Shown here: positions 22,613 through 39,943 of the stretch, piece by piece | Numbering within the stretch: the first letter of the stretch is position 1 | Layout: each line of letters begins with the position of its first letter | DNA from: Achromobacter sp. AONIH1 | Lineage (GTDB): Bacteria; Pseudomonadota; Gammaproteobacteria; Burkholderiales; Burkholderiaceae_B | NCBI RefSeq assembly: GCF_002902905.1 | Contig: NZ_CP026124.1 | Coordinates: forward strand, 248,001-312,000 | Direction of reading: 5' to 3' | Length of the DNA: 64,000 nt | Program-made: the position numbers and the translations under genes | The notes under the pieces: model-generated | Told to the model about the DNA's origin: nothing | The model's database searches: none | What the model saw: the letters and a program-made list of their open reading frames with translations, nothing else

Positions 22613-22641
22613 CAGTGGAGCGGGTGAAGGGAATCGAACCC
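22613..22641. repeat. Attachment core, left copy (29-bp direct repeat)
   Basis: Identical to 39915-39943 over 29 bases, beginning CAGTGGAGCGGGTGAAGG. It is the encoded CCA end, acceptor and T-arm of tRNA-Gly read on the minus strand. It separates the ICE on the left from the low-GC element on the right and is the shared junction of both. Confidence 0.9.
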
Positions 22642-22689
22642 ACGCTTGAGGCTTGGGAAGCCGCCGTTCTACCATTGGACTACTCAAAA
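22616..22689 (-). pseudogene. tRNA-Gly(CCC)-like pseudogene at the element junction
   Basis: Aligned by hand to the intact tRNA-Gly at 39918-39991, 60 of 74 positions agree, including the T-arm, the CTTCCCAAG anticodon loop and most of the D-arm. The first six bases of the acceptor stem are replaced (TTTTGA instead of GCGGGT) and the anticodon stem has a mismatch, so it cannot fold as a functional tRNA. The part beyond the 29-bp core belongs to the low-GC element, so its attachment site seems to carry a long tRNA mimic. Confidence 0.72.
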
Positions 22690-22708
22690 AATCTAAGTGC
22701 TTGATTTT

Positions 22709-22730
22709 CCTCATATTTTTCAATGTGAGG
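22709..22730 (+). promoter_or_regulatory. Hairpin near the left attachment site
   Basis: CCTCATATT, loop TTTC, AATGTGAGG: nine pairs with one G-T wobble, between the tRNA-like sequence and the arm-type repeats. Possibly part of recombination control or of the integrase leader. Function inferred from position only. Confidence 0.4.
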
Positions 22731-22740
22731 TATTGGGCAT

Positions 22741-22786
22741 GGTGTCACTGCAGGGTGTCATTTACCACCTACAGTTAGGGGTCACA
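22741..22786 (+). repeat. Arm-type repeats of the element integrase, left end
   Basis: GGTGTCACT (22741-22749) and GGTGTCATT (22754-22762) are direct repeats spaced 13 bases start to start. A third copy, GGGGTCACA (22778-22786), abuts the integrase start codon. The right end of the element has a matching pair at 39871-39892 with the same 13-base spacing and orientation. Most likely arm-binding sites of the integrase, also placed to block its own translation or transcription start. Confidence 0.6.
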
Positions 22787-24172
22787 ATGGCACAATACCT
22801 AGAGCAACGACGAGGCTACTACTACTTCCGTCAAGTAGCTATGATTAATGGAAAGCAGAAAGCTAAACGAATAAGTCTTAAAACTAAAGACTTGAAAATT
22901 GCTAAAATGCTTTCAATTCAAATCTTGGCAAGTATTTTTCAAATGAATAAAAAATTTGAAGTTCAATACGATGACAACAATAACATAAAATCAATAAATG
23001 TTAAAGATGAGGCTGATCATCGTCTTTACATGGAATATGAAGAAATGCGACAAAAGCATTTAGCTTTTAAGCATAAACAAGAACTAGAAAAGCTTGAGGC
23101 TCAAGCCAAAATAAAAAAAGAAGAAGATGAAAGAAAATCAAAGGAATGGCAAGAATCGGATAGAGCAAATCTTTTTGAAATGCTTAATGCTACTTTAGCG
23201 ACGAAACCACCTAAAAATACAAAAAAGTTAATAGAATACCTAGAAGAATATCTTAAAACTGTAAGTGTTAAAAATCAACAAACACATGACAAATATCGTC
23301 GTGTTAACACTCAACTTATAGAATATTGTCAAACACAAGGGGTAGATACTCCACATGGTGTTACAAGGGAATTAGTATGGAGCTATATTAATTTTCTAAA
23401 AGCTGATGGCAAATCGGACAAAACCATTAAGAATTTATTCTATACTCAAGGTTCTTTTTATAACCATCTATTGAGAATAGGTGCAACAAAAGAACCAAAC
23501 CCGTTTACAGGTCATAAATTTAATGTAGAAAAAACCAAGAGAATTCCATTTACTATAGAAGAACTAAATAAAATATTCTCTTGTCAAAAAATTAAAGATA
23601 AAACATCGTTATTTTATGTATGTTTAATCATGCTAACTAGTGGAGCTAGACCTAGCGAAATTTGTCAACTTTGGCATGATGACATTAATAAAGTAGATGA
23701 TTATTATACGATTAGGATTGTTGAAAATCCTCAGCGAGAGCAAACACTAAAAACTCCACAAAGCAAACGATTAATATATTTGCACCCTTTAGTTATTAAA
23801 CATGGATTTTTGGAATACCTAGAAACACGAAAAGGTAGAAATATATTTGATATTCCAAAAGCAAAAGGTAAAAATATTTCTAAATTGATAAGTGAGGATT
23901 TTAGCGAGATATTAAGAAAGACACTTAATATTGAAGTTAAGACACTTTATTATTTTAGACATACTGTAATCAATAGGATTAAAGCAAAAGGGGCTGAAGT
24001 TCCCAATATTAAAGAAATAACTAAGGATATGATCGGTCATGATGATGACGATGATGATAAGCAGAAAACTGACACAATGTTAGAGCATTATGAACAGTTA
24101 TATCCTCCATCAATTTTAAAGAAAGCTACTGAATCGCTCTTAAACTACGAAGAAGTAAAAGCATTAAACTAA
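22787..24172 (+). CDS. Tyrosine recombinase (integrase) of the low-GC element
   Basis: Integrates and excises the element at tRNA-Gly. It has 461 residues from ATG 22787 (an earlier in-frame ATG at 22697 would overlap the arm repeats). The N-terminus YYYFRQVAMINGKQKAKRISLKT is an arm-binding-type domain, followed by a charged coiled coil (about residues 85-130), a core-binding domain (about 150-245) and the catalytic domain: Arg near 288 in TSGARPSEICQLW, FRHT near 391, IGHDD near 416 and Tyr near 434 in MLEHYEQLYP. The first His of the usual HxxR box is replaced by Tyr/Leu. A DDDDDD run follows the GH motif. Confidence 0.92.
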   Translation: MAQYLEQRRGYYYFRQVAMINGKQKAKRISLKTKDLKIAKMLSIQILASIFQMNKKFEVQYDDNNNIKSINVKDEADHRLYMEYEEMRQKHLAFKHKQELEKLEAQAKIKKEEDERKSKEWQESDRANLFEMLNATLATKPPKNTKKLIEYLEEYLKTVSVKNQQTHDKYRRVNTQLIEYCQTQGVDTPHGVTRELVWSYINFLKADGKSDKTIKNLFYTQGSFYNHLLRIGATKEPNPFTGHKFNVEKTKRIPFTIEELNKIFSCQKIKDKTSLFYVCLIMLTSGARPSEICQLWHDDINKVDDYYTIRIVENPQREQTLKTPQSKRLIYLHPLVIKHGFLEYLETRKGRNIFDIPKAKGKNISKLISEDFSEILRKTLNIEVKTLYYFRHTVINRIKAKGAEVPNIKEITKDMIGHDDDDDDKQKTDTMLEHYEQLYPPSILKKATESLLNYEEVKALN

Positions 24173-24197
24173 AATCCGGTTTAGCAGTGGAAACCAT

Positions 24198-24228
24198 GAG
24201 CTTTACCATTAGGTGAGGCTCTTTTTTT
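24198..24228 (+). terminator. Terminator after the integrase gene
   Basis: GAGCTTTACC, loop ATTA, GGTGAGGCTC, then seven T. All ten positions pair (two G-T wobbles). It lies 26 bases after the integrase stop. Confidence 0.82.
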
Positions 24229-24311
24229 CATAAAGCATTTCTCTATCGTTATATTTATTAAGTAATGCGTTATACCTATAGATACTGCATGATTTGATAG
24301 AAATAATTTTA

Positions 24312-24386
24312 TTGTTGCTTACCTGTATTCCTGTATAATTACTACATCAACCAAGTTATTCAATGGTTGAACTCATAGACCAACCA
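24312..24386 (+). promoter_or_regulatory. Promoter and CAACCA repeats upstream of the 24401 gene
   Basis: TTGTTG (24312-24317), 16 bases, TATAAT (24334-24339) form a good promoter. Downstream, CAACCA (24348-24353) is inverted as TGGTTG (24364-24369) and repeated directly at 24381-24386, so a regulator may bind between promoter and start codon. Confidence 0.6.
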
Positions 24387-24400
24387 TCTTAGGAATACAA

Positions 24401-24997
24401 ATGGCTTTCATTCACGATGCTCAAGAAATTCTGTCGGATCAAGACTATGCCAAGCTGAAAGAACTTCAGCAAAAGTCTGCAGAGTTCGAAACTACAAAGG
24501 CAGAAGAAGAGGAACTTTACAACATCAAGAAAAAGGTGCATGACGGTGTTGCACTTCGAGATCGTGAAAAGAACCTTGCTTTCCTCAATGGCAAAGCTTA
24601 CCCTCTGGCTGAAATCATTAATGCTACGGGTTACACGGAAGATGAAGTTAAAGATGCCGTGAAAAAGCTCTATGCTGATACTACCCCTGCCGTCCAAATC
24701 GCCACTTATAAGATCAAGGGCAATAACGGTAAAGATACCGACCACCATGTTATGAACTCGGGTCGACTGACAAAGGAACTTAAAGCCGAAGTTGTGAAAC
24801 ACGGCATTAAAGGTTTTCTTGCTAATGCCAATGATCTTGCATGGCTCTTGAAGAGTCATGTTGTTGAAGTCGGTAAGTATAAAGGCACTACTGTTTACCC
24901 GAATGCTACCTCTGTAGCGAAAAGGTTTGATTGGGATCGTGATGATCTCATCAAGCAAGCACAGGCGAAACACAAGAAAGATAGCGAACAAAAGTAA
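24401..24997 (+). CDS. Unknown protein, GC-richer cassette in the low-GC element
   Basis: A 198-residue soluble protein not recognised. Residues about 10-55 look like a coiled coil (many Glu, Lys, Gln), followed by AEIINATGYTEDEVKDAVKKLY, which could be a helix-turn-helix, and a basic C-terminal region (GKYKGTTVYPNATSVAKRFDWDRDDLIKQAQ) ending in KHKKDSEQK. The charged, lysine-rich ends would suit a nucleic-acid-binding protein. Its GC content (roughly 45 percent by eye) is clearly above that of its neighbours. It has its own promoter and is isolated by terminators on both sides, the layout of a phage moron or cargo gene. The start follows AGGA. Confidence 0.85.
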   Translation: MAFIHDAQEILSDQDYAKLKELQQKSAEFETTKAEEEELYNIKKKVHDGVALRDREKNLAFLNGKAYPLAEIINATGYTEDEVKDAVKKLYADTTPAVQIATYKIKGNNGKDTDHHVMNSGRLTKELKAEVVKHGIKGFLANANDLAWLLKSHVVEVGKYKGTTVYPNATSVAKRFDWDRDDLIKQAQAKHKKDSEQK

Positions 24998-25016
24998 TCT
25001 AAATTACTAAAAAATA

Positions 25017-25042
25017 AACCCCGATTTCTCGGGGTTTTTTTT
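25017..25042. terminator. Strong terminator between 24401 gene and dotA-like gene
   Basis: AACCCCGA, loop TTTC, TCGGGGTT followed by six more T. Eight-base perfect stem. It serves the rightward gene; the convergent gene ends at 25045. Confidence 0.9.
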
Positions 25043-25044
25043 CG

Positions 25045-27585
25045 TCAATCACTTTTATCTTTATCAATTGGCTTAACATCAAAGATATTTTTATGAGTAA
25101 TTTCATTACCATTTTCATCTTTAATTAATCTACCATTTTCTTTTCTTACTTTTTCAATTGAAATTTCATCACCAACTTTTATACCATTTTCGCTAATACC
25201 TCTTTCTAAATCAACTCCCCAAGCTGTAGATGTTTTACCATTGGAGCTTACTTTTACGAAGTAACTAGGTGCATTGTCGGGATTATTTTTGTATGGAGCA
25301 TGACCAAAATCTACTACTTTACCCTCTCTTTTAGAGCTACCTTTAGATTTAGGTGTAGCTTTATTCATTAATGCTGAATATGAACCAGTTTCCCCACCAG
25401 CACTATTAGATTCAACTGAATCATTAGAGCTTGAAGAAGTGGAACTAGGACTACTTGAATCTTCATTACTATTAGAACCACTATTAGAAGATTCATCACG
25501 ATCATTAAATGATCTACCACCACCACCACCATTAGGAAGTAATGGTTTAGGCTGATTTCCTTTCAAGTATGAGCCACCTATACCACCTATCCCCTTAACT
25601 GTAGAGCCTATAACAGCCCCTACAGCCATCATTTCCCCGCCACCCATGCTAGTTGCATGCCCACCGAAACCAGTAGAGCCACCACCGATCCACTTAAGAA
25701 TCTCATCGGGTAGAACATGGATTATTGAATAGGTTTTCTTAACAAAGAAATACATTATTAATCCGTACATGATTGGACTAAAAATAATTCCAACTAACCA
25801 AGTAAGAAAACCTGAATCGGATTGTGTCATTGCGAATATGTAGCCAAACATACCACTTAACCATACTCCTAAAGTATTCATAATTACGATAGAAGTAACA
25901 AATCCAGCTACTAATAATACGGGTTTAAATAGTAGAGCAATCATTAATCTAAATCCGTTTCCTCCTAATCCTGCTACATCATGCCCGTCAGGATTAAGTA
26001 TCATTATCCCCCAGAACCCGCATGCAATAATTGCCTCTATAACCATTAATATGAAACCTACAATACAGCCCACCCATATAAGTATTGGGATTAGAGGAAA
26101 TACAAATTTTAATACTCCACCTAACATAGAGAGTATTGGAACAGTAGCATTAAGAAAGAAGGATATAGCACTACCAATACCAGGGGCATTCCCAATAGTT
26201 ACAAGCAAAGTAATCATTCCAGCTAGACCAGTACCAGCTAGAGCTAACAAAAATCCACCCCAACTATTTAATGTCATCATAGGATTTTGATTACTATTAA
26301 CGGCATAAGTAGATGTAGTAAACATCTTTGTAATTAGTTCAGTTGGATCTAGACCGTTATTTATCCATTGCTTTATTTTATCTAGAAAACTACCACCACC
26401 ATCAGCCTCTGCAATTAACCCATAACTTACCACTCCAAAATCGGATTTCTCCAATAATTTAATAGCTGTGCTTAATGCTACCGAGTATTCCGTTTTCAAT
26501 ACTTTTGTAGGAAAGTTTATAGGACCACTTGCATAAGGTAAGGCACTAACAGACTGATTAACCATGTTGGACATGCTATTTATTTTAGTATCATAAAAAC
26601 CCAACATGATCCAGCCATCTTTATTAATGTTTTCCTGTATTGTTTTATACTGATCCATTTTTGATACTACTTCTAAAGCAGTATCTTTAATACCACTTTC
26701 ATATTCAAAAATAATCTTTTCAATGGAAGATACATCTATTGAACCACCGTTAACTAGTTGACTAGCCAATCCATCCATTTTACTAATCATGCTAGCAGAT
26801 AAACTATTATGTTTATCTTGAATGGCTTTTAATTGAGCAAATGCATCTTTACCTATTAATACTTCGCTGAAATCTTTTGGAGCTTTATAATCCATTACCT
26901 TTAAAAAACCACATGCCTCAGGAGTGATACCGTTATTATCTTTTTTATTTCCAAATAAATATCTATTGCCGCCTGATATAGACTCTTTTGTCATTCCTAT
27001 TTGTGAATCAGGAAAGATAATATTATTTTCTTCTAATTTTACATACTTATCTAGCACAGCCATACAAACACTAGATAAGAAAAGTTTAGCTCCTAGTTGT
27101 TTTGCCTCCGGTTTTACAATAGAGGCAGATATTGTCTGTTGAAAATTACTATTTTTTGTGAAATTGACTACGGCAGAATCTGCAATTCCTATTCCTTGAA
27201 CAGTTATCCATGCCACTAATACCTGCAAAATCGTATAGCCTTTAACTACTGGCAACATAATTCCAGCCATTGAAGCCATTCTTATTACTGTCCAGTTACC
27301 ATGCTTCTTACCTAAAACTTGCCCATCATGTGCTGAATTATAGATAAGTGAAAGAATAAAGTAACCAACAATTAAACCTGAAACCGCGATAACTGAAAGG
27401 TTTATCACTTCTATAAATGCTAGAAGTGGATCACCACCAGCACCAAAAACCCCTACCCCTCCAAATATGGACTTAAGCATGTCCATACTTTTATCGCCTG
27501 GAAGTGGTGTAAATAAATCTGCACCGTAAGAAGTTCCAAAAGCGAATAAGAGCATACTCATTATTATTATTCTAATTTTGCTCAT
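25045..27585 (-). CDS. DotA/TraY-like conjugal transfer membrane protein with C-terminal extension
   Basis: An 846-residue inner-membrane protein. A signal sequence (about residues 1-22) and helices near 58-85 and 105-135 precede a large periplasmic domain (about 140-430), followed by six or so helices (about 445-640), then a Gly-rich region (SMGGGEMMAVGAVIGSTVKG), a Ser-rich linker (about 690-745) and an extra domain (about 765-846). The topology and segments such as HGNWTVIRMASMAGIMLPVVKGYTILQ resemble DotA/TraY of I-type secretion systems. The tail (YFVKVSSNGKTSTAWGVDLE, then GIKVGDEISIEKV) resembles a module I recall from relaxases and plasmid primases. No other secretion genes are present, so it may modify a helper's apparatus. 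Confidence 0.72.
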   Translation of the reverse strand: MSKIRIIIMSMLLFAFGTSYGADLFTPLPGDKSMDMLKSIFGGVGVFGAGGDPLLAFIEVINLSVIAVSGLIVGYFILSLIYNSAHDGQVLGKKHGNWTVIRMASMAGIMLPVVKGYTILQVLVAWITVQGIGIADSAVVNFTKNSNFQQTISASIVKPEAKQLGAKLFLSSVCMAVLDKYVKLEENNIIFPDSQIGMTKESISGGNRYLFGNKKDNNGITPEACGFLKVMDYKAPKDFSEVLIGKDAFAQLKAIQDKHNSLSASMISKMDGLASQLVNGGSIDVSSIEKIIFEYESGIKDTALEVVSKMDQYKTIQENINKDGWIMLGFYDTKINSMSNMVNQSVSALPYASGPINFPTKVLKTEYSVALSTAIKLLEKSDFGVVSYGLIAEADGGGSFLDKIKQWINNGLDPTELITKMFTTSTYAVNSNQNPMMTLNSWGGFLLALAGTGLAGMITLLVTIGNAPGIGSAISFFLNATVPILSMLGGVLKFVFPLIPILIWVGCIVGFILMVIEAIIACGFWGIMILNPDGHDVAGLGGNGFRLMIALLFKPVLLVAGFVTSIVIMNTLGVWLSGMFGYIFAMTQSDSGFLTWLVGIIFSPIMYGLIMYFFVKKTYSIIHVLPDEILKWIGGGSTGFGGHATSMGGGEMMAVGAVIGSTVKGIGGIGGSYLKGNQPKPLLPNGGGGGRSFNDRDESSNSGSNSNEDSSSPSSTSSSSNDSVESNSAGGETGSYSALMNKATPKSKGSSKREGKVVDFGHAPYKNNPDNAPSYFVKVSSNGKTSTAWGVDLERGISENGIKVGDEISIEKVRKENGRLIKDENGNEITHKNIFDVKPIDKDKSD

Positions 27586-27597
27586 ATCTTCCCCTAT

Positions 27598-27768
27598 TTA
27601 TTTTTGTTTTGTATTTAGCTTTTCTAGATTTGCTTTTGCTATAAAGTGAATAACTTTTATGTATTCACTCATGGACAAACTTAATTTTCCTGATGTTTCT
27701 TTGAAACTGTCTTTAGTTTCTTCATCTAATCTTATAGATAATAACTTGTCTTGTTTTTTCTTCATCAT
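27598..27768 (-). CDS. Small ribbon-helix-helix protein
   Basis: A 56-residue protein not listed among longer frames. DKLLSIRLDEETKDSFKETS, followed by a helix SMSEYIKVIHFIAKANL, is the beta-helix-helix pattern of MetJ/Arc/CopG regulators. It starts at tandem ATGs (27768 or 27765) after AAAGGAG and ends 12 bases before the dotA-like gene, with which it forms a leftward operon. A leftward promoter TTGACT-N17-ATATTA lies near 27790-27820. Probably an autoregulator of the operon or a relaxosome accessory protein. Confidence 0.7.
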   Translation of the reverse strand: MMKKKQDKLLSIRLDEETKDSFKETSGKLSLSMSEYIKVIHFIAKANLEKLNTKQK

Positions 27769-27848
27769 TACTCCTTTGTGTTATCTAATTAATATAGAGT
27801 AAGAATAATTTAAGTCAATACAAACACTGGAATTAATCAAGACAAAGG

Positions 27849-27872
27849 AAAAGGGGCTAATGCCCCTTTTTT
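27849..27872. terminator. Hairpin terminator, GGGGC/GCCCC type
   Basis: AAGGGGC, loop TAAT, GCCCCTT followed by T-run to 27872, with A-run on the other side, so it can work in both directions. Same stem sequence as the terminators at 34799, 37773 and 38651. Confidence 0.7.
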
Positions 27873-27886
27873 GTTCTTCGAAAGGT

Positions 27887-28002
27887 AGCCCCTACGGGGT
27901 TGTCCTACGGACTTCAGTTAAACAGAAGATGACTTTTAACTGTATGAATAACCAGGAATTGAGCCCTACCCTACCCTAGACTGATCTATAGCCCCTATGG
28001 GC
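27887..28002. other. Cluster of perfect hairpins in a 430-base gap
   Basis: Tandem small hairpins: CCCC-TAC-GGGG (27889-27899), GTCC-TAC-GGAC (27902-27912), CAGTTAAA-N12-TTTAACTG (27915-27942) and GCCC-CTAT-GGGC (27991-28002). The gap 27769-28204 has no other gene. More GC-rich than the surroundings. A replication origin, small RNA or long 5' leader are possible. Confidence 0.45.
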
Positions 28003-28145
28003 GATTTCAGGAGGAATTGACACCAACACACCACCCCATGATTTTTAGGGGCTTACAAGCCGTTCTAGAGGGTCATTTTTTCGCTTAACTTAATAAACGA
28101 GTCCTTTAAGTTACTATGTCAACCGTTTATCTTATTATCCCGTAT

Positions 28146-28178
28146 TTGTATTGACAAACTACGGATATTTTAGATAAT
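28146..28178 (+). promoter_or_regulatory. Promoter of the small-gene operon, with shared operator
   Basis: TTGACA (28151-28156), 16 bases, GATAAT (28173-28178). The 20 bases 28146-28165 (TTGTATTGACAAACTACGGA) are identical to 38244-38263, another promoter in this element, so both are probably controlled by one factor binding over the -35 and spacer. Confidence 0.75.
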
Positions 28179-28204
28179 TAAATTATGAACAACAAGGAAA
28201 ACAA

Positions 28205-28372
28205 ATGACAATCTTACTTATTTTACTAGCTACAATCTGGACTTTTTGGTTTATCTCTAACTTTTCCAGATTTACCAATTATTTAACTTATTTAATTTGC
28301 AACTCAGGAGAAACAACAAATGAAAAAAACAGAAAGAATAGAAGTTCTTTTATCTACAACACAAAAAGCTGA
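28205..28372 (+). CDS. Short hydrophobic protein
   Basis: A possible 55-residue protein: one N-terminal membrane helix (LLILLATIWTFWFI) and a polar tail. It follows AAGGAA with good spacing and is first after the promoter at 28151, about 20 bases from the expected transcript start. Its 3' half overlaps the next gene in another frame, so it may be a short regulatory or coupling peptide. Not recognised. Confidence 0.4.
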   Translation: MTILLILLATIWTFWFISNFSRFTNYLTYLICNSGETTNEKNRKNRSSFIYNTKS

Positions 28373-28490
28373 AATAGACGAAGTATGTAAGAAATTGGGA
28401 ATCTCACAATCTTCTTACTTTAATTTAATACACTCAATATTCAAGCTAGAAAAATTAGAGGAAACATTATGGAAAAAGAAAAAGAAATAA
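28320..28490 (+). CDS. Small ribbon-helix-helix protein (CopG-like)
   Basis: A 56-residue protein: ERIEVLLSTTQKAEIDEVCK, then KLGISQSSYFNLIHSIFKL, a beta strand followed by two helices as in CopG/Arc repressors, and a lysine-rich end. ATG 28320 is nine bases after CAGGAG. It overlaps the following gene by 22 bases in another frame. Probable transcription factor of this operon. Confidence 0.7.
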   Translation: MKKTERIEVLLSTTQKAEIDEVCKKLGISQSSYFNLIHSIFKLEKLEETLWKKKKK

Positions 28491-28924: not shown

Positions 28925-28934
28925 AGGAGCAATC

Positions 28935-29439: not shown

Positions 29440-29440
29440 A

Positions 29441-29614: not shown

Positions 29615-29646
29615 CACAGATTTCATAACAACTATAAGGAGAAAAT

Positions 29647-30003: not shown

Positions 30004-30010
30004 TAAAAAA

Positions 30011-30156: not shown

Positions 30157-30651
30157 TCATTTCCCGATTAACTCTTTACACTCATGAACAGCTAAAGATA
30201 GGTCCTTTAATGGATACTCTTTATTGTATTGAATAACGATAGCTTTATCAGTATCGTTTAAAGTCTTATCTAGATCTTTTTCTAATGTCTTTAATAACAT
30301 TAACATATTATATTTAGGTTTAACTTCTTCAATAGCATTTTCATTCATCTTGGATTTAATCAATTCGATTTCCTCATTTAAACCCGGAAATTGATTATCT
30401 TCCTTAGGTATTGCTCCCCTCTTTTTCCAAATACTTATAAGATTACCTAAAGTCTTATTGTTTAATTCCTTGTTTACACCATCTTCTTTTAACCTTTTGT
30501 TTACCCATGGAGCGATCACTTTGTGTTTAACACCAAGTGATCTAAGGGCTAGTATTTGTTTAACATATTTAAAAACTTGAAATCCTGGTAATTCTACGAT
30601 CTTATTTGTTTCCACTAACTCAACTAATTCTTTGTATATATTCTCTTCCAT
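30157..30651 (-). CDS. Probable DNA-binding protein, unknown family
   Basis: A 164-residue protein. The segment LALRSLGVKHKVIAPWVNKR, with NKTLGNLISIWKKRG (about residues 35-78), has the shape of a helix-turn-helix region as seen in plasmid-borne KfrA-like or mobilisation proteins, and the C-terminal part is acidic and helical. It follows AAGGAG and is divergent from the relaxosome operon, with the hairpin-rich region 30741-30918 between them, so it could bind there. Assignment as DNA-binding is an inference. Confidence 0.65.
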   Translation of the reverse strand: MEENIYKELVELVETNKIVELPGFQVFKYVKQILALRSLGVKHKVIAPWVNKRLKEDGVNKELNNKTLGNLISIWKKRGAIPKEDNQFPGLNEEIELIKSKMNENAIEEVKPKYNMLMLLKTLEKDLDKTLNDTDKAIVIQYNKEYPLKDLSLAVHECKELIGK

Positions 30652-30740
30652 TTTATTTTCTCCTTAATTGGTAGATAACTAACATCTTAAACGATAATTA
30701 AAAAATATCAAGATGGCATTTATTTAACATTAAAACCGGC

Positions 30741-30918
30741 AAGCCCATTACGAAAAGTGTTTCCCACTTTTCTTACACATAGTGCAATTACGCTGTATTG
30801 CGATGCTCCTAGTATCTTCGATAGCTAGGGAATTTGGGCTTTTCTCCCCCTTTTAAACAAAGCTTGTTTTACAGCTTTGGCGAGGTTTTACCTCTCACAA
30901 AGCAAGTATTGACTTGCT
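30741..30918 (+). other. Cloverleaf-like multi-hairpin region (candidate oriT or structured RNA)
   Basis: An outer stem AAGCCCA (30741-30747)/TGGGCTT (30835-30841) encloses three hairpins: GAAAAGTG/CACTTTTC (30752-30772), GCAAT/ATTGC (30784-30801) and CCTAGTATC/GATAGCTAGG with one bulge (30808-30829). Three more perfect hairpins follow: CAAAGCT/AGCTTTG (30858-30879), GAGGT/ACCTC (30882-30894) and AGCAAGT/ACTTGCT (30901-30918). It lies in a 366-base gap just upstream of the accessory protein, coupling protein and relaxase genes, where an origin of transfer is expected. Confidence 0.5.
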
Positions 30919-31017
30919 CCAAAACAACTAGCATTAAAAAGTAAGGCTGAAAACTTGCTTTTTTAGTTTTTTACCTTATAACTAATATTGGATAATTGTT
31001 TTTTTAAAGGAGAAACC

Positions 31018-33422: not shown

Positions 33423-34795
33423 TTGCAATATCTAAAATTAACAATCCTGATTATTTAATATCCCACACTAAACATGAGTATTACACCGAGGGAGATAACC
33501 AAGAAGGATACTTTGCAGGAAAACTTTGTTCTTGGCAAAAATTATCAGGTAAAGAAGTCGATAGAACAACCTTTGAAAGATTCATGGGATACGGGAAAAA
33601 AGAGGGTTTCTATGGTGTAGAAATTGACCCTGCACCACCCAAGGACTTTACAGTCCTTATGGAAAGAGCAAATGATACCGATAGAGAAAAGTTCTTGAAA
33701 ATGCATAAATTAGCAGTTCAAGATTTAATTAAAGCTATTGAAGAAAATACTTATTATCGTAAAACGGAAAAAGGTAATACCCGTTATGAGTTAGCTAAAG
33801 CCGTTAGCATGGCCCATTTCACACACTTTACATCAAGGGGTGTAGAAAAAAATGGAGTATTAACACATGATTGTCAACTACATGAGCATATTGTAGTTTT
33901 TTCTAGAGTTGTTGGAAAAGATGGTAAATATCACTCACATACTCTATTAGATGCCAAGTATGAAAAGAACCATGAAACTCTTAATTATTTTGATCAAATT
34001 TATCAACATAGATTAGCTAAAGAATTACAGAAAGAGGGATATGTTATTGAACCTGGAAACCGTGACTCTTTTACTATTAAAGGTGTTAGCAAAGAAGTTA
34101 CTGAAGAGTTTTCTACAAGAAGAAAGAAAATTATTGAAAAGGTTGGAGAAGATGCAAGTTATGCCACCAAATCTAGAGCTAGCCTTAATACACGAAATAA
34201 AAAAGAATACAACGACTTAGGACAACTTCGCCCCGAGTGGCACAAAAGAATGGATTCACTCGGTTTTACAGCAGATAAGATAGGATCAATAAAAGGAAAA
34301 CAATCTAATCAAGATAAAGCATTTAATGAGGTTTTCACTGACAAAGCCGTGATTTCAAAGAAATTATTAAAAACGAAAGCATTAGCTGAATCAAAATACA
34401 GCACTAAAACTTACACGGAAAAATTAACAGAGTTTCATGCTGAGCTAAAATTAGGAAAATTAGGTAAAGAGCATTATCTAAATACAAATAACAAGCACTC
34501 TAAAAATATGGACAAATCAATAAATGGAGGAAACCTAAAACCAATTAAAGGAGGAACAGAAAAATCCACAACATTAAAACAAAGTGATAAATTGCAAGCT
34601 AGCCTTAATGAGATTAGATCAAGTTATGCGAATAGAATAGCTCAAATACTAGCTAAACAATCTACTAAACAAGGATTAGAAACAGCCGAGCTTTCTAAAG
34701 CCATGAGTGATTTTGCCAAAGCTGAAAGTGAGATAAATACTCAACTTTCACAAGCATTAATAGAAGAATCAAGACAAAATGATTATGATAGATAA
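33419..34795 (+). CDS. MobF family relaxase (TrwC-like), compact form without helicase
   Basis: Nicks oriT by a tyrosine transesterification. In 458 residues it has only the relaxase domain: Tyr21-Tyr22 in HEYYTEGDNQEGYFAGKLCSW, the histidine triad as HFTSR (His136) and LHEH (His155, His157), and FDQIYQHRLAKELQKEGY. The C-terminal about 170 residues are Lys- and Ser-rich and helical. Typical MobF relaxases (TrwC, TraI) carry a C-terminal helicase of 500 or more residues, which is absent. It overlaps the coupling-protein gene and ends at a terminator. Confidence 0.9.
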   Translation: MIAISKINNPDYLISHTKHEYYTEGDNQEGYFAGKLCSWQKLSGKEVDRTTFERFMGYGKKEGFYGVEIDPAPPKDFTVLMERANDTDREKFLKMHKLAVQDLIKAIEENTYYRKTEKGNTRYELAKAVSMAHFTHFTSRGVEKNGVLTHDCQLHEHIVVFSRVVGKDGKYHSHTLLDAKYEKNHETLNYFDQIYQHRLAKELQKEGYVIEPGNRDSFTIKGVSKEVTEEFSTRRKKIIEKVGEDASYATKSRASLNTRNKKEYNDLGQLRPEWHKRMDSLGFTADKIGSIKGKQSNQDKAFNEVFTDKAVISKKLLKTKALAESKYSTKTYTEKLTEFHAELKLGKLGKEHYLNTNNKHSKNMDKSINGGNLKPIKGGTEKSTTLKQSDKLQASLNEIRSSYANRIAQILAKQSTKQGLETAELSKAMSDFAKAESEINTQLSQALIEESRQNDYDR

Positions 34796-34798
34796 AAT

Positions 34799-34820
34799 AA
34801 AGCCCCTTTCGGGGCTTTAC
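34799..34820. terminator. Terminator after the relaxase gene
   Basis: AAAGCCCC, loop TTTC, GGGGCTTT directly after the relaxase stop codon, flanked by A and T tracts. Confidence 0.85.
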
Positions 34821-34916
34821 TTTTTAACAATTTCCATTATATTAAAGTTTGAGAAGAAAATAATATAAACGGTCTTAAATGAACAACCTAACTAAAAAAC
34901 TTAAGGACCAATTTTT

Positions 34917-34940
34917 ATGAACTACGAAATTCCTATATAA
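34917..34940 (+). CDS. Seven-codon leader peptide upstream of rep
   Basis: ATG 34917 after AAGGACC encodes MNYEIPI and stops at 34940, 12 bases before the rep start, whose own site AAAGGCC lies inside this gap. The rep protein begins with the same two residues after Met (Asn, Tyr). Leader peptides that control rep translation by coupling are known for plasmids such as IncFII; here the role is inferred from layout only. Confidence 0.4.
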   Translation: MNYEIPI

Positions 34941-34952
34941 AGGCCAAAAGCT

Positions 34953-36923
34953 ATGAACTACAGTAACAATATAAGCCATTTATCTTTAAAAGTCAATAAC
35001 TTATCTAAAATTATTTTTGATGATGAAGATTATAAGATATTTGATGAGATTGGTGAGCAAGAAGACAAAGCATATCAATTATCAGTAAACTTACAGAAAT
35101 TTGAGGGTTTTGTAAAATCACAAGAACAAAAAGAAAAATCTAAAACTATTTACACTAAAGAAGAATTAGAATTAAAGGCTAGATTTTTCTCTTTAGTTCC
35201 AGATGTTCACAAACATAATATCAAAACATTGGTAAAGAAAAAATGCTATGGTGGCGACTTAATTAAATACATTAAGTCAAGAAAACTTTTCTTTGAGTGT
35301 TTTACAGTAGAACTAAAAAAGTTAGCTGATGGTCAAATGACTGAAGAGCAAAATAGATCAATCAAGAGATTATTTAACAAAAGAAAAAAAGAGGCGCTTT
35401 TATATGCCTCACAATTGCTAGGCTTAATTGGAAAAGGTGTATCTCATTACATTGACTCTTCTTTATTAAATTTGTATATCGAAGAAATCAAGAAACAAGA
35501 AAGATTTGTCAATTCAAATAGACTTATTAATAGTGTGGGAGCTATTAAAAAGATTCCATCAGTAGAGAATAAACAACGACAAAAAGTAATGCAGATTACT
35601 CGTATAAGTAAATGCTTGGGTCAACTTGCTCAAGACAAGGGTATGACATTTGTGATGGTCACACTAACATTACCACCACACATGCACCCAGCCCCCTCCA
35701 TTGGACAAAATAGCTTTAATGGTGTCATGCCTTTGGAGGCACATGCTCAACTGCACCACTTTTGGAGATTAATAAGAGCACACTTATCTAAAGCTAATTT
35801 TGTCTTTAATCATGAGGGAAAGATTAAAGTTAAGAAAACTAAAAAAAGAGGCGAAGAAGAAATTTATCTTAAGCCCATTTTTGGACTTCAAACAGTAGAG
35901 GCACATGTCGATTCAACATTACATCTCCACTCTTTACTTTACATTAATCCTGAAGATATGGACGATGTAATAGAAATCGTCAATAGAGTGTCTTCTATCT
36001 ATACAGCATCAACAGGTAAATTAGTAAGATTTGATATTAAAAAGAATGATGGCAGAGCAAACGGTCATACTTATGTCTATAAATACATCACAAAATCTAA
36101 CTGTGTTTATACAGATGAAAATAAAACACATTTAAGAAATACTGCATTAAGGCACTACTACAGTGCACGAGGCTTTAATTTCTTTGGAATAAATGGAATT
36201 ATTACCAAGTTCAATTTTTTAGCTAGAAATTGCTTGGATTACAGAGAAGTTTTAGACGAGAAAATTATTGATTGCTTATTGAAAAATGACTACTACGAAT
36301 TCATCAAGGAATACAATGAGTATTTTGAGAATGTCTATTCTTATGATGAGAATAAAAAGAGAAAATTTTTAGGAGTAGCTTATATTAGGAGTCATAGTCA
36401 ATATGATCCCACAGACTATGTATTAATTGAGAAAAAGATTTTCTCAATATTTGAGGCAAACAAAGAAATCCAAGCTGATACAGATGAAATTATCAAAAAT
36501 ATTATTCAATTAAAAAATCAGGATATGAGTATTAACAATGCTTTAGATATTGCCATTGGAAATCAAGATAAACACGACAAATTAAAAGAAGATGTTTTAG
36601 AAGAAATGAAATCTAAAGGCTTTACAGTTCATTATGTAGATATACATAAAGAAGATAAAGAGTCTAGAAGAGATATACAATTAACTTTAGCTCTACCTAT
36701 TAAAACTTCTAAAGAATTAAACCCATCACATGAAATAAGTTACACTTATTCCATGTTTATTCAAGTAAACCCAGAAAACCCTAACCCCAAGTTAGAAAAA
36801 CCCATAAAAACCAAAACCAAACCCATATTGGTAAAGAAAAAAGAGTTAGTGAAAGAGCAAAAACCTAAAATTTTAGGATTTAAGTTAAAAAGACCTGGGA
36901 CTAATTTATCAGTTCAGCTTTAA
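34953..36923 (+). CDS. HUH replication endonuclease (phage GPA/rolling-circle Rep type)
   Basis: A 656-residue initiator of rolling-circle replication. The three motifs are visible in order: TFVMVTLTLPPHMHP (about residues 232-246), the metal-binding HUH box HLHSLLY (324-330, His324 and His326) in VEAHVDSTLHLHSLLYI, and the catalytic tyrosines YVYKYITK (Tyr374, Tyr376, Tyr378). Two or more tyrosines in this box are typical of GPA-like and RepA-type enzymes. The first 220 and last 200 residues are charged and unassigned. This suggests that the excised element replicates as a circle. Confidence 0.88.
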   Translation: MNYSNNISHLSLKVNNLSKIIFDDEDYKIFDEIGEQEDKAYQLSVNLQKFEGFVKSQEQKEKSKTIYTKEELELKARFFSLVPDVHKHNIKTLVKKKCYGGDLIKYIKSRKLFFECFTVELKKLADGQMTEEQNRSIKRLFNKRKKEALLYASQLLGLIGKGVSHYIDSSLLNLYIEEIKKQERFVNSNRLINSVGAIKKIPSVENKQRQKVMQITRISKCLGQLAQDKGMTFVMVTLTLPPHMHPAPSIGQNSFNGVMPLEAHAQLHHFWRLIRAHLSKANFVFNHEGKIKVKKTKKRGEEEIYLKPIFGLQTVEAHVDSTLHLHSLLYINPEDMDDVIEIVNRVSSIYTASTGKLVRFDIKKNDGRANGHTYVYKYITKSNCVYTDENKTHLRNTALRHYYSARGFNFFGINGIITKFNFLARNCLDYREVLDEKIIDCLLKNDYYEFIKEYNEYFENVYSYDENKKRKFLGVAYIRSHSQYDPTDYVLIEKKIFSIFEANKEIQADTDEIIKNIIQLKNQDMSINNALDIAIGNQDKHDKLKEDVLEEMKSKGFTVHYVDIHKEDKESRRDIQLTLALPIKTSKELNPSHEISYTYSMFIQVNPENPNPKLEKPIKTKTKPILVKKKELVKEQKPKILGFKLKRPGTNLSVQL

Positions 36924-36964
36924 TGTTGCATAAATGCTATTTCTTTAATATTTACCTGTACTTC

Positions 36965-37002
36965 TTTTGTTAAGTATGCAATAATTATCACACTTAACAA
37001 AA
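36965..37002. promoter_or_regulatory. Ten-base inverted repeat at the promoter of the 37014 gene
   Basis: TTTTGTTAAG (36965-36974) and CTTAACAAAA (36993-37002) are perfect inverted copies separated by 18 bases that contain an AT-rich -10-like TGCAATAAT. The right arm ends just before the TAGGAG ribosome site, so it is either an operator or a leader hairpin that could mask translation. Confidence 0.6.
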
Positions 37003-37013
37003 TAGGAGATTAA

Positions 37014-37769
37014 ATGAACTACACTACTCTACAGAAGAATATTAAGGAATTAGCAAGCAAGTCAAAGTATCTTACTGATGAAAAATCAGTTATTGAGGCA
37101 GTTTTAGGGCATGCTTTTAATTTTGCTTTATGTCTTCCAGTGCAAAACGGAGCAAGGCAGTTCCCATACTGCACTAAAAATACGAAGATTAGCTACTACG
37201 AACCAAAAAATGACACTGAAGAAGAATTACTTGTAAAGTGTCTTACTACTTTTGCTGAACTCTATAAGAACAGTGAGCCATTTGAAGATGTTTTAACAAA
37301 CATCTATGCTGAACATCTTAATTTTAAATTAGGTCAGCACATGACCCCACCAGATTTATCCAAAGCATTATTCTCAATCATTGACAGCACTAATAGTATT
37401 GAGAGCCACTTAAAGACCAATAATACATACTCTTTTTATGATCCCACAGCAGGAACAGGATCGCTTGCAATGGGAGCATTACAAGGTATCTATAAAAAAT
37501 ATGGCGAAGAGGGACTATCTAGGGTAGATGTATTTCTATGTGATTTAGATTTAAAGATGTGCATTGCTAGTGTTGTTAATTTAGAATTAAGCTCACTATC
37601 ACATCAATTAAATTACAATCAGCTTACAGTTTTCAATCAAAGCTCATTAGTAGACCTTGAAGAGAAAAATAAATTTGTTGAGCTTATTCCTAACTATTTA
37701 AAACATAGGAAAGTAAGAGAGTTGCATGATTATGAGAAAACTGATATTAAAGAGCTTGAACCAGCATAA
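37014..37769 (+). CDS. N6-adenine methyltransferase-like protein lacking the catalytic motif
   Basis: A 251-residue protein with the cofactor part of type I-like N6-adenine methyltransferases: GQHMTPPDLSKALF (motif X region, about residues 107-120) and YDPTAGTGSLAMGAL (motif I, 142-156), then a short acidic strand VFLCDLDLKMC. The expected NPPY/F catalytic motif is not visible before the stop, and the protein is much shorter than usual for the family. It may bind S-adenosylmethionine without methylating, or be a truncated remnant. It has its own regulated promoter and terminator, so it is probably expressed. Confidence 0.78.
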   Translation: MNYTTLQKNIKELASKSKYLTDEKSVIEAVLGHAFNFALCLPVQNGARQFPYCTKNTKISYYEPKNDTEEELLVKCLTTFAELYKNSEPFEDVLTNIYAEHLNFKLGQHMTPPDLSKALFSIIDSTNSIESHLKTNNTYSFYDPTAGTGSLAMGALQGIYKKYGEEGLSRVDVFLCDLDLKMCIASVVNLELSSLSHQLNYNQLTVFNQSSLVDLEEKNKFVELIPNYLKHRKVRELHDYEKTDIKELEPA

Positions 37770-37772
37770 AAT

Positions 37773-37797
37773 AAAGCCCCTAAAATGGGGCTTTTTC
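37773..37797. terminator. Terminator after the methyltransferase-like gene
   Basis: AAAGCCCC, loop TAAAAT, GGGGCTTT plus TT. Same stem as the terminators at 34799 and 38651. Confidence 0.86.
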
Positions 37798-37830
37798 TTT
37801 GGTGAGCTACATAATAAAATATATAATAGC

Positions 37831-38157
37831 TTAAATTTTATATGGCTTTTTCTTTGGTTTATTTTCATCTAAATTAATATCCAATTTTATTTTTAACAAC
37901 AAGGATTCTAATTCTTTGTCTTCCAACGGAGTTCCACTAATTTGATTTTCTAGCCTACTTTTCTTTAGGCTAATAAAGTTTGTGTATTTACTAACAAAAG
38001 CCTGACTTACATCTACCCGTTTTGCTATCTCACTTTGAGATAAATCTGGACGATTAACAAATAAAGTAACTACAGCACTAATTTTCGTCCAGTATTTTTT
38101 ACCTCTAGCTAGCCCACCTTTTCTACCAGCCTCTATATATTTATCAATGTAGCTCAT
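37831..38157 (-). CDS. Helix-turn-helix regulator
   Basis: A 108-residue protein with a clear helix-turn-helix at about residues 39-60 (LSQSEIAKRVDVSQAFVSKY). The N-terminus has GRKGGLARGKKYW and the C-terminus is lysine-rich (KPKKKPYKI). It follows AAGGAG. Its promoter faces the promoter of the next gene, and both carry a TACGGA element just after the -35 box that recurs at 28161, so it is the natural candidate for the factor that controls all three. Confidence 0.82.
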   Translation of the reverse strand: MSYIDKYIEAGRKGGLARGKKYWTKISAVVTLFVNRPDLSQSEIAKRVDVSQAFVSKYTNFISLKKSRLENQISGTPLEDKELESLLLKIKLDINLDENKPKKKPYKI

Positions 38158-38187
38158 GTTTTCTCCTTTATGCTATGTGATAGTTTT

Positions 38188-38215
38188 CTTATAGCTTGTA
38201 TTCCGTAAATGTCAA
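38188..38215 (-). promoter_or_regulatory. Promoter of the helix-turn-helix regulator gene
   Basis: Read on the minus strand: TTGACA (38215-38210), 16 bases beginning TTTACGGAA, then TATAAG (38193-38188). The spacing and the ACGGA element at the same place match the promoters at 28146 and 38244. Confidence 0.72.
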
Positions 38216-38243
38216 GCTTTCCACTCATCTTAAATATTGTTTC

Positions 38244-38276
38244 TTGTATTGACAAACTACGGAACTATAGAATAAT
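38244..38276 (+). promoter_or_regulatory. Promoter of the 38296 gene, with shared operator
   Basis: TTGACA (38249-38254), 16 bases, AATAAT (38271-38276). The 20 bases 38244-38263 equal 28146-28165 exactly. Confidence 0.75.
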
Positions 38277-38295
38277 AAAAGTAAAGGAGAACTAT

Positions 38296-38646
38296 ATGGA
38301 TAACTACAATAAAAAATTTCACATCTGCATGACTGATCACTCTAACGAGAAAACTACATTTGATTTAGTCAAAACTCGCTATTCATCTAACTATTTTCAA
38401 GAACCAAGTTACGATCAATTCGTAGCTATAACAATGGTAGATAGCATGATTTTATATGCTCTAAAGCATTTCGCTATCTTTGATGATATAGGGTATGAAA
38501 AAGATGAGTGGTCTATATTGGTAGAAAGTCCTTATTTCTGTTTTTCTTTAAGAGTAACCAAACTACTTGAATATTTAATACAAAAAGACTTTGATTCCTT
38601 TCCTGTATCTACCACCCCTTATACTCCTATTTATTCATTTGGATAA
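38296..38646 (+). CDS. Unknown protein under the shared promoter
   Basis: A 116-residue protein from ATG 38296 after AAAGGAG; earlier in-frame codons would overlap the promoter. It is rich in aromatic residues and lacks membrane helices or known motifs (FHICMTDHSNEKTTFDLVKT; DEWSILVESPYFCFSLRVTK). Co-regulation with the 28205-30003 operon is likely from the promoter sequence. Not recognised. Confidence 0.72.
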   Translation: MDNYNKKFHICMTDHSNEKTTFDLVKTRYSSNYFQEPSYDQFVAITMVDSMILYALKHFAIFDDIGYEKDEWSILVESPYFCFSLRVTKLLEYLIQKDFDSFPVSTTPYTPIYSFG

Positions 38647-38650
38647 AATT

Positions 38651-38674
38651 AAAGCCCCTTACAGGGGCTTTTTT
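38651..38674. terminator. Bidirectional terminator between 38296 and pilin genes
   Basis: AAAGCCCC, loop TTACA, GGGGCTTTTTT. It is located between two convergent genes and has A and T tracts on its two sides. Confidence 0.86.
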
Positions 38675-38679
38675 ATGGA

Positions 38680-39633
38680 TTAAAATTTGAGTTTTCCTCG
38701 TTGTAATAACCATACTTTTATTTGTTCGCTATTTAACATTTCGTTTTGTGATAAATCTACATTCTCAATTGTGAAAGTAGAATCTAATCCATCTACTTTT
38801 ATAACTGTATTCGCTCCATCTTTCTCGAATACGACATTATCAAGACTTCCATTTGTTAAAGAAGAAAGATCAATTATTCCACCATTTTGAGCTACGGGTA
38901 GAGTATTGAAATCCTTAATCTTGTAAGGCTTGTCATCTTCTATTTTAAAATTTTGCTGACCATTTCCACCCCAAAGGTCGAAATTTTCTTCTGGTTGATT
39001 CTCTCCATTACCATTATTAGAGAACTCTCTAGTTTCGCAACTTTTAGGTAGATACTTTTGTTCTATATTTGCATAGCAATTCCATGATTCATTGCTAGCT
39101 ACTGCATCACTAATACCTAATAAATTTAAGATAAAACTTGATTTAGCGATTACTATCTCTTGACCTGGATTTAAAGGAGATAGAACCACCATTTTATTTA
39201 CTAGTTGTTTATTGGCTTTATCGTTAAATCTAACAACTATATTTCCATCTTGAATATTTACACTATCAACAAAATTTCCTACAGCACTAGAGTATCCAAC
39301 CGAGTCATTATTTACTGGATACTCTCCATTGTTTGCATAATATTCAATAACGGCAGGTTTAGCACCACTACCTAGTAAAACAGCCTCACTAACCTGACTT
39401 CTAGCTACATAGTCCTGATAGGCTGGAATAGCTACAGCACCTAACACACCAATGATAGCTACAGTAATCATTAGCTCAATCAAGGTAAAACCTTTACTTA
39501 CCTGTTTTAGAGCTTGGCTATATGATTGATTTTGCTCAAGTTTTTCTTGATTGTTATTTGGTTGTTGATTGTTTTCTTTACTCTTAACATCAACTAGATT
39601 TCTTAATTTTTCTATCTTTTCACTATTAATCAT
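38680..39633 (-). CDS. Type IV prepilin-like protein with 48-residue leader and C-terminal extension
   Basis: A 317-residue protein with a perfect class III signal: [20 protein letters not shown] at residues 47-66, continuing [17 protein letters not shown] as in type IVa pilins. Cleavage would be after Gly48, so the leader is 48 residues (Gln/Asn-rich) instead of the usual six or seven. A pilin-like globular part with cysteines ([17 protein letters not shown]) is followed by an Asn/Gly-rich spacer and about 90 further residues. No pilus assembly genes are nearby. It may be inserted in the host's pili or act in mate recognition like IncI thin-pilus proteins. Promoter TTGATT-N16-TATAAT lies upstream. 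Confidence 0.82.
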
Positions 39634-39708
39634 GGTTTCCCCTTTTTATTGTTGTATAAACATTATAGGGGATATATCTTACAAATCAATACCTTATAAA
39701 AAATAAAA

Positions 39709-39728
39709 AGGCCAGCATAAGCTGACCT
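39709..39728. terminator. Weak hairpin downstream of the element's last gene region
   Basis: AGGCCAGC, loop ATAA, GCTGACCT (one mismatch), followed by AATTTTATTT. It lies in the 280-base gene-free right end of the element (39634-39914) and may insulate it from chromosome-side transcription. Confidence 0.4.
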
Positions 39729-39798
39729 AATTTTATTTAATTCATAACTTTAAAATATTAAAACCATCCGGAGCCCTACATTCTCCGTACCACTTGTG

Positions 39799-39826
39799 AA
39801 ATGCCAATCTTTGCAGATTGACATTT
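39799..39826. promoter_or_regulatory. Hairpin near the right attachment site
   Basis: AAATG-C-CAATCT, loop TTGC, AGATTG-A-CATTT: eleven pairs around one mismatch. Like the left-end hairpin at 22709 it sits between the element interior and the arm repeats. Confidence 0.4.
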
Positions 39827-39870
39827 TCGCCCTATACCATAGGAGATGCATTGTCAAATATGCTAAAATG

Positions 39871-39892
39871 GGGGTCACTTTGTGGGGTCACA
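39871..39892 (+). repeat. Arm-type repeats of the element integrase, right end
   Basis: GGGGTCACT (39871-39879) and GGGGTCACA (39884-39892) are direct repeats 13 bases apart, matching the left-end pair at 22741 and 22754 in orientation and spacing. They lie 23 bases from the core. Confidence 0.6.
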
Positions 39893-39914
39893 TTTGAACG
39901 ACTTTTTCAGTAGT

Positions 39915-39943
39915 CAGTGGAGCGGGTGAAGGGAATCGAACCC
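39915..39943. repeat. Attachment core, right copy (29-bp direct repeat)
   Basis: Identical to 22613-22641. Here it forms the 3' end of the intact tRNA-Gly, so integration leaves the tRNA functional. Confidence 0.9.

Follow-up and report, generated by a model that had tools for sequence, protein, structure and literature searches.

Within a window of 64,000 nucleotides (positions 248001-312000 of the single-contig 6.65-Mb genome of Achromobacter sp. AONIH1) lies an island of 17,330 bp (C1:270614-287943 in genome coordinates), which carries an integrase between attachment repeats as well as mobilisation genes of its own, has no complete mating-pair formation system and is thus a putative integrative mobilizable element (IME). 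Besides a MobF relaxase and a coupling protein it encodes DotA/TraY (274 bits), a predicted VirB6-class subunit of I-type secretion channels, so that it can be placed among the IMEs that carry a mating-pore subunit without the remaining pore. By analogy with the island SGI1, we propose that the element may exchange the VirB6-class subunit of an I-type helper for its own, a model to which we give an even chance.

The island is flanked by exact 28-bp direct repeats, of which the right one overlaps a tRNA-Gly(ccc) at its 3' end, and the 74 nt starting at 22614, repeat included, agree with the end of this tRNA at 62 of 74 positions in an ungapped alignment. Its GC content is 32.5%, compared to 67.0% for the rest of the window. 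An earlier note on this DNA had described a low-GC element encoding a MobF relaxase, a coupling ATPase, an HUH replicase, a DotA-like protein and a pilin; composition and repeats bear out the element, and matches to Pfam and NCBIfam families uphold all five gene calls (Table 1). By its TrwC domain, the only one found, the relaxase is a predicted member of the MOBF family, and its motifs YYTEGD (residue 21) and LHEHIVV (residue 154) are what we take to be the N-terminal tyrosines and the histidine triad of MOBF. With 458 aa it lacks the C-terminal helicase half of TrwC/TraI.

The claim that a secretion core is missing holds as well. No VirB subunit was found by Pfam among the 16 open reading frames (ORFs) of the island that were taken as genes (two 56-aa ORFs stand outside this set), and no VirB4 lies within the island according to a search of the whole genome in which 64 of 136 candidates were scored. 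When 18 I-type proteins of pCTX-M3, a Bordetella plasmid, R64 and pOXA-48 were used as tblastn queries, TraY alone matched the island at a threshold of E 1e-3; as a control, the same queries recovered 18/18 proteins on pOXA-48, 16/18 on R64 and 13/18 on the Bordetella plasmid over the stretches compared. VirB4/TraU, DotH, DotI, DotG, DotB and DotC, by which a conjugative element of the I-type (MPF_I) is recognised, are not present as a set in the island. DotH (PF12293), DotI (PF11393) and TraU are also absent from the whole genomes of AONIH1 and of a Delftia strain with a related element, and DotH and TraU from that of a further relative, G325; with no I-type system found in these three hosts there is no helper in sight. 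Perhaps the helper arrived together with the element and then did not stay. The search for VirB4 in AONIH1 gave six matches at five loci, all below the family cut-off, one of them in an adjacent integrative and conjugative element (ICE).

The DotA/TraY protein and its putative partner

DotA is counted among the VirB6-class subunits, and together with IcmX it makes up a channel that is a pentamer (PMC12857230). The DotA and MobF proteins of the island cover their family models nearly end to end, and their ORFs are intact. Residues 747-828 of DotA match the MobP1 model with 44 bits, which is below its cut-off. The C-terminal domain (about residues 750-840) resembles a domain of Ti-type TraA/MobP1 relaxases, primase-like (toprim) proteins and a plasmid-borne LPD7 protein, with 34-46% identity among the matches listed, which lie within about residues 750-844, and the LPD7 protein of plasmid L002, one of the plasmids treated below, gave no match to it. 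Such a relaxase-like tail is odd on a channel subunit and may link DotA to the relaxosome. The DotA query matches 2445 plasmid records, some of them by the C-terminal domain only, so that this number is no count of DotA genes. An AlphaFold model of DotA built on two sequences was unusable (mean predicted local distance difference test score, pLDDT, 32).

DotA is probably not a lone subunit, as the earlier note had it. Family models, searches with hidden Markov models (HMMs) in both directions and a controlled profile comparison support the view that the 151-aa protein encoded nearby is an IcmV/TraX-like partner of DotA/TraY. This protein has no Pfam match; it scores 37.7 bits (E 2e-9) against the NCBIfam model IcmV_IVB and 23.9 bits (E 2.6e-5) against conj_TraX, each with a curated cut-off of 100, which the TraX of R64 passes (174.4 bits) and the TraX of pOXA-48 misses (65.4 bits). 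An HMM of three TraX proteins, run against 2366 ORFs of 20 sequences, ranked it (E 0.009) directly after the TraX proteins themselves and the Bordetella TraY, and an HMM of four plasmid proteins alone found it with E 0.033 and the TraX of pOXA-48 with 0.16. In the other direction, an HMM of six small proteins of core-less elements, that of the window included, reached the TraX of pOXA-48 (5e-4), R64 (4e-3) and pCTX-M3 (0.055), and also one unrelated ORF (0.006). Using hhalign, the proteins of the window and Delftia aligned to TraX with 74% probability and E 2.8e-5, compared to 0.1% and E 0.43 for the ExcA control; the six-protein profile gave E 1.8e-5 over 45 columns. The small proteins of the plasmids L002, L003, L099 and L100 match neither NCBIfam model, so that HMM comparison is what connects these to TraX. 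The DotA/TraY of the Bordetella pseudohinzii plasmid (L101:10954-13674) has an N-terminal extension, and the protein matches the TraX HMM with E 6e-7, so that it may be a natural TraX-TraY fusion.

Recurrence of the gene set in other elements

Among 300 genomes of the order, 18 including AONIH1 match the MobF protein, and only one other, Delftia tsuruhatensis NBRC 16741 (G133), does so over the full length (39% identity). Its element occupies about 3.0-21.7 kb of contig C23 beside a tRNA-Arg, within limits set by GC content (24-38%) and the tRNA. It encodes an integrase, MobF, the coupling protein (33% identical to that of the island), a homologue of the 164-aa protein at 30157, an N6 methylase, an IcmV-like protein, DotA and a helix-turn-helix (HTH) protein. 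Nine of the 43 genomes of the genus of AONIH1 have a MobF match; the short form is confined to AONIH1, the others lying in frames of 952-1050 aa. The coupling-protein profile has matches in three of 53 genomes of the Delftia genus, which outside G133 reach 20 and 18 bits. In 369 genomes of the class, 14 match the coupling protein and 52 DotA, and G325 is found in both sets: here an integrase, a Phage_GPA-type Rep, the coupling protein, a MobF with helicase and DotA lie within about 12 kb, DotA directly after MobF. Relaxase, coupling protein, replicase and DotA are thus all present in G325; in Delftia, MobF, coupling protein and DotA are present and tblastn found no Rep. A scan of genome contigs with two peptide patterns matched 108 stretches, with Delftia as the sole relative, which is no measure of rarity; viral contigs scanned with DotA and MobF gave 47 and 7 pattern matches, none of which was confirmed as a relative.

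A different arrangement is present on the 53-kb contig G598:C35 (L106-L108, L110), which encodes MobF, a TrwB-like coupling protein, an IcmV/TraX-like protein (35.3 bits for IcmV, 31.8 bits for TraX), TraU/DotO (VirB4), DotH, DotI, DotB, DotC and DotA; over the 50 kb compared, tblastn detected neither TraO nor TraW. MobF and I-type genes thus do occur together in nature, and G598 offers a plausible picture of the architecture of a helper.

DotA/TraY without a core is not confined to MobF elements. It was found in Delftia and G325, in a chromosomal island of E. coli and on plasmids of E. coli, Klebsiella and Enterobacter. The plasmids (L002, L003, L052, L099 and L100) measure 22-43 kb, and their complete records were tested for a core with DotH or DotI as the marker. 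Prepilins accompany DotA/TraY in the E. coli island (L091) and on L099 and L100, i.e., in this island, a Klebsiella plasmid and an Enterobacter plasmid, and none was detected by motif scan on L002, L003 and L052. The island L091 (NZ_CM187552.1, 2720081-2755631) contains MobQ, DotA/TraY, a TraW-family protein, TraD, a pilin annotated as BfpA, and PilV, with no secretion core in the stretch examined; of 5426 E. coli genomes, 66 contain 80% or more of a 17.7-kb query taken from this island. A plasmid record carrying a copy of it has no DotH. In the part of a Salmonella record (L053, CP082529.1) that was examined, the gene table suggests an inverted repeat that holds DotA/TraY twice, perhaps as an assembly artefact.

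In a first tree of 27 rows, eight core-less DotA/TraY proteins, of which L003 and L052 are near-copies, form one group with support of 84/84, G325 being counted here with the chromosomal rows. The same eight group with 96/96 in a second tree, in which G325 was relabelled, G598 and a Xanthomonas plasmid were added and two chromosomal rows were dropped; G325 stays outside the group. Several branches are long, and two of these meet. It is conceivable that a dedicated lineage of DotA/TraY, accompanied by IcmV/TraX where this can be detected, remodels I-type channels from unrelated backbones (MobF and MobQ islands as well as small plasmids typed as non-mobilizable), an idea that we hold tentatively and with slightly more doubt than belief.

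These data bear on the question whether the island is the reduced remnant of a MobF/MPF_I conjugative element that lost most of its secretion genes, leaving DotA and IcmV as functionless leftovers. The earlier note had named a homologous element with a full secretion operon as the case that would speak for such a deletion derivative. All the gene classes concerned are indeed assembled on the G598 contig, and another integrated element resides in the DNA next to the island. G598 comes nearest to such a case, and it corresponds only loosely: its proteins share just 21-28% identity with those of the window (27.6% for MobF, 21.3% for the coupling protein). Moreover, decay is at odds with intact ORFs that match their models almost from end to end, with the persistence of much of the gene subset in Delftia and G325 and of DotA on plasmids with other backbones, and with the grouping of eight core-less DotA proteins, which would not be expected if each had been left over independently. 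As the gene subset recurs in other elements, a deletion derivative is disfavoured, and we consider the remnant quite unlikely.

The element could also use a resident T- or G-type system by means of its own coupling protein, in which case DotA and IcmV would serve another purpose, e.g., blocking incoming I-type plasmids. The host would be suited to this, as it has VirB4 at five loci, including one within the adjacent ICE, and no DotH, DotI or TraU. It is nevertheless the relaxase-like C-terminal domain of DotA and the direct linkage of DotA to the coupling protein and MobF in G325 that point to transfer rather than exclusion, and when ExcA from R64 and pOXA-48 was compared with seven proteins that neighbour DotA in six elements without a core, no meaningful match resulted. 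Use of a resident system is hence a possibility that we rate as unlikely, if worth keeping in mind.

The pilin, remaining genes and genomic setting

The prepilin of the island is type IVa-like, with 47 residues preceding the GF motif (residue 48) and a C-terminal extension that has no Pfam match. The earlier note had suggested that it might retune a helper or the type IV pili of the host. This part of the suggestion is unsupported, because the protein is type IVa-like, the motif scan of the relatives in Delftia and G325 gave no pilin, and the AONIH1 genome holds no PilB above the cut-off (best match 517 bits, cut-off 675.65); the PilB match in Delftia reaches 814. The Delftia element has a protein with a weak Spore Coat U domain match (L035:10334-10807; 20.5 bits, cut-off 22.4), which is perhaps a surface protein of its own in place of the pilin. 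A broader version of the same idea is that DotA/IcmV and the pilin together remodel surface structures of the host and have no link to DNA transfer. On small plasmids of Pseudomonas (L092, 6.9 kb) and Acinetobacter (L093, 6.3 kb) and on one of Aquincola (L094, 28.2 of 32.8 kb covered), a type IVa pilin gene does stand without any other annotated pilus gene. DotA is however retained in the Delftia and G325 relatives, in which the motif scan detected no pilin, and to our knowledge the DotA/TraY families are known from type IV secretion only, so that surface remodelling appears very improbable. In the model of subunit exchange, the pilin stands apart as an accessory gene.

The gene for the 164-aa protein is divergent from the mobilisation genes in both the island and the Delftia element, and the intergenic region between them is a candidate for the origin of transfer (oriT) by position. 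The Rep protein has the motifs HLH (residue 324) and YVYKY (residue 374); no homologue of it was found on L002. The N6 methylase has tblastn relatives on L002 and L003 and none in the Delftia element, though the latter has an N6_Mtase of its own. Two 56-aa ORFs between dotA and the IcmV-like gene, 27598-27768 (-) and 28320-28490 (+), resemble ribbon-helix-helix (RHH) regulators by eye. At the DNA level the element matches plasmids in the tRNA-Gly stretch alone (20 of 24 records listed).

Table 1. Features of the island and its target site, with positions in the window (aa, amino acids; att, attachment site)
Feature	Position	Strand	Basis
attL	22614..22641	.	exact 28-bp repeat of tRNA-Gly 3' end
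Tyrosine integrase, 491 aa	22697..24172	+	PF00589 and PF13102, barely over cut-off; phrog_1 integrase
Protein without family above cut-off, 198 aa, convergent with DotA	24401..24997	+	
DotA/TraY channel subunit (predicted), 846 aa	25045..27585	-	TIGR04346 274 bits, cut-off 100
IcmV/TraX-like protein, 151 aa	28469..28924	+	NCBIfam IcmV_IVB and conj_TraX, below cut-off; HMM; hhalign
164-aa protein	30157..30651	-	Delftia homologue, tblastn 32% over 68 aa, E 4e-8
oriT candidate, by position alone	30652..30987	.	upstream of mobilisation genes
Small protein in the position of a TrwA-like relaxosome factor, 89 aa	30988..31257	+	no family above cut-off; RHH by eye
TrwB/TraD-like coupling protein, 722 aa	31254..33422	+	PF10412 (TrwB_AAD_bind) 86 bits; PF12696 48 bits
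MobF relaxase (predicted), 458 aa	33419..34795	+	PF08751 (TrwC) 149 bits; NF041492 138 bits, cut-off 100
HUH rolling-circle replication protein, Phage_GPA family, 656 aa	34953..36923	+	PF05840 69.9 bits, cut-off 31.4; phrog_91
N6-adenine DNA methylase, 251 aa	37014..37769	+	PF02384 21.6 bits, cut-off 20.4
HTH regulator, 108 aa	37831..38157	-	HTH_3 18.9 bits, under cut-off; Delftia homologue 31% over 67 aa
Type IVa-like prepilin, long leader, C-terminal extension, 317 aa	38680..39633	-	PF00114 71 bits; PF07963 33 bits
attR	39916..39943	.	28-bp repeat within tRNA-Gly 3' end
tRNA-Gly(ccc), integration target	39918..39991	-	ARAGORN

The left neighbour of the island is a PFGI-1-class ICE, which encodes a MobH relaxase and an ATPase of the VirB4 type. 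At G000:C1:192833 the attachment core of the tRNA-Gly recurs over 12 bp, in a context resembling the ICE end that adjoins position 22614; this copy is perhaps the end of the ICE or of an older one. Near the transfer genes of the ICE, the window encodes a ThiF-like protein (5-1210) with a weak match to the anti-phage family cap2_3 (75 bits, cut-off 320).

Proposed mechanism and comparison with known systems

Gene content, boundaries, the lack of a core and the recurrence in other elements are read from the sequence, and on these we build a model that comprises excision, transfer, use of an I-type helper, exchange of a subunit and escape from exclusion. The element, inserted at tRNA-Gly, would use its own rolling-circle initiator in the excised form. 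It would process its DNA with its own small DNA-binding-like protein, TrwB-like coupling protein and MobF relaxase, whereas the mating channel would be supplied by a helper. The IcmV/TraX and DotA/TraY pair would then take the place of the VirB6-class subunit in the channel of an I-type helper, giving a hybrid channel that may favour the coupling protein and relaxosome of the element and may go unseen by ExcA-type entry exclusion of the helper. If ExcA does not recognise the hybrid channel, the element could gain entry to cells in which the helper already resides.

The model is in line with published parallels, i.e., SGI1 TraG and the TrbL proteins of GIsul2 and the IncP island (PMC5389848, PMC5704250), and with the fact that the gene set is kept in Delftia at a different tRNA (tRNA-Arg) and partly in G325. 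TraG of SGI1, a VirB6 homologue, replaces that of the helper and thereby disables entry exclusion (PMC5389848; PMC5704250). In IncI plasmids it is TraY that ExcA recognises (PMC12365149, PMC6112013), and a comparison of pOXA-48 with pCTX-M3 shows traX, traY and excA to vary as one unit (PMC12365149). The part of the earlier note that drew an analogy with SGI1 for the channel of a helper is well supported as a working model, and it is the best one at hand.

Several points weigh against it. An I-type system was found in none of the three hosts (by DotH and TraU, and by DotI for AONIH1 and Delftia), and the resident VirB4 loci of AONIH1 belong to other kinds. Both scores of the putative IcmV/TraX protein are below the curated cut-offs, HMMs built without it reach it only at E 0.033 or 0.009, and tblastn with TraX of pCTX-M3 misses it, as it misses the N-terminal extension of the Bordetella TraY. 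When G325 is included, the core-less DotA proteins are not a single clade in the best tree, even if one clade of nine is not rejected (approximately unbiased test, p-AU 0.204), and the TraY of pND6-2, a plasmid that has DotH, scores 173 bits against the DotA of the window, within the 157-197 bits of the core-less proteins. Conservation of the oriT region with Delftia is no better than that of shuffled sequences, which reached the observed score in 282/500, 65/400, 62/400 and 142/400 cases under four scoring schemes. Finally, no transfer experiment was found.

Among the plasmids moved by I-type systems are resistance plasmids of the IncI and IncL/M groups. pOXA-48 is one example of a resistance plasmid moved in this way (PMC12365149). 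Riders on these systems that evade exclusion matter for plasmid epidemiology. If the model is true, the VirB6-class subunit would be the shared target in three classes of channel (F, T and I), and its capture a general and repeatedly evolved way to pirate conjugation and to pass entry exclusion.

The earlier note knew of no described element with this combination. That is too broad for the general kind, which is known from SGI1, GIsul2 and the IncP island, and it stands for the version with an I-type subunit, MobF and a coupling protein: no description of an I-type (DotA/TraY) mobilizable island was found in the literature searched, a search that left subscription papers and bioRxiv outside its scope. 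According to a 2017 review, no canonical IME with a MobF relaxase is known, and where mobilizable plasmids and putative IMEs have a VirD4 of their own, as few do, they carry MobC (PMC5704250). The element would be an exception in both respects, and the Alcaligenes faecalis plasmid pNY11312-NR (L004, NZ_CP096917.1, 20.3 kb) in the second. Like the island, this plasmid combines MobF with a TrwB-type coupling protein, and it has no secretion gene among 25 annotated features; unlike the island, it is a plasmid with TrfA, a longer MobF and no DotA match.

In the conjugative plasmid R388 the order trwA-trwB-trwC places a small DNA-binding protein before the coupling protein and MobF. The order of small protein, coupling protein and MobF in the window is the same, whereas the helicase half of the relaxase and the Trw secretion genes are lacking. 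The E. coli island L091 resembles the element in having DotA/TraY, a pilin, an integrase and a relaxase with no core in the stretch examined, and differs from it in its MobQ relaxase, the PilV shufflon adhesin, a differently annotated pilin and in that no IcmV/TraX match was found.

SGI1 shares with the element a VirB6-class subunit and a replication initiator, which is of the Rep_3 type in SGI1 (PMC5704250). It has neither relaxase nor coupling protein, both of which are present here, and its subunits are F-type and its helpers IncA/C plasmids; by the definition of the SGI1 family (F-type TraN, TraH and TraG, no relaxase, insertion at trmE; PMC5389848, PMC5704250, PMC8409611) the element is not a member. 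GIsul2 likewise carries subunits of the VirB5 and VirB6 classes (TrbJ, TrbK, TrbL) without a mating pore, which are T-type and accompanied by neither relaxase nor coupling protein (PMC5704250). For GIsul2 and for the IncP island, which encodes a relaxase with TrbJ and TrbL and sits at guaA in Brucella suis, a trick similar to that of SGI1 has been proposed (PMC5704250). The IncP island of Burkholderia glumae, in which TrbJ, TrbK and TrbL stand beside a MobP relaxase, is like the element in that it joins a relaxase and relaxosome of its own to a VirB6-class subunit without the remaining pore (PMC5704250). It does so with T-type subunits and MobP, whereas the element of AONIH1 would do so with a predicted I-type IcmV/DotA pair, MobF, its own coupling protein and a site at tRNA-Gly.

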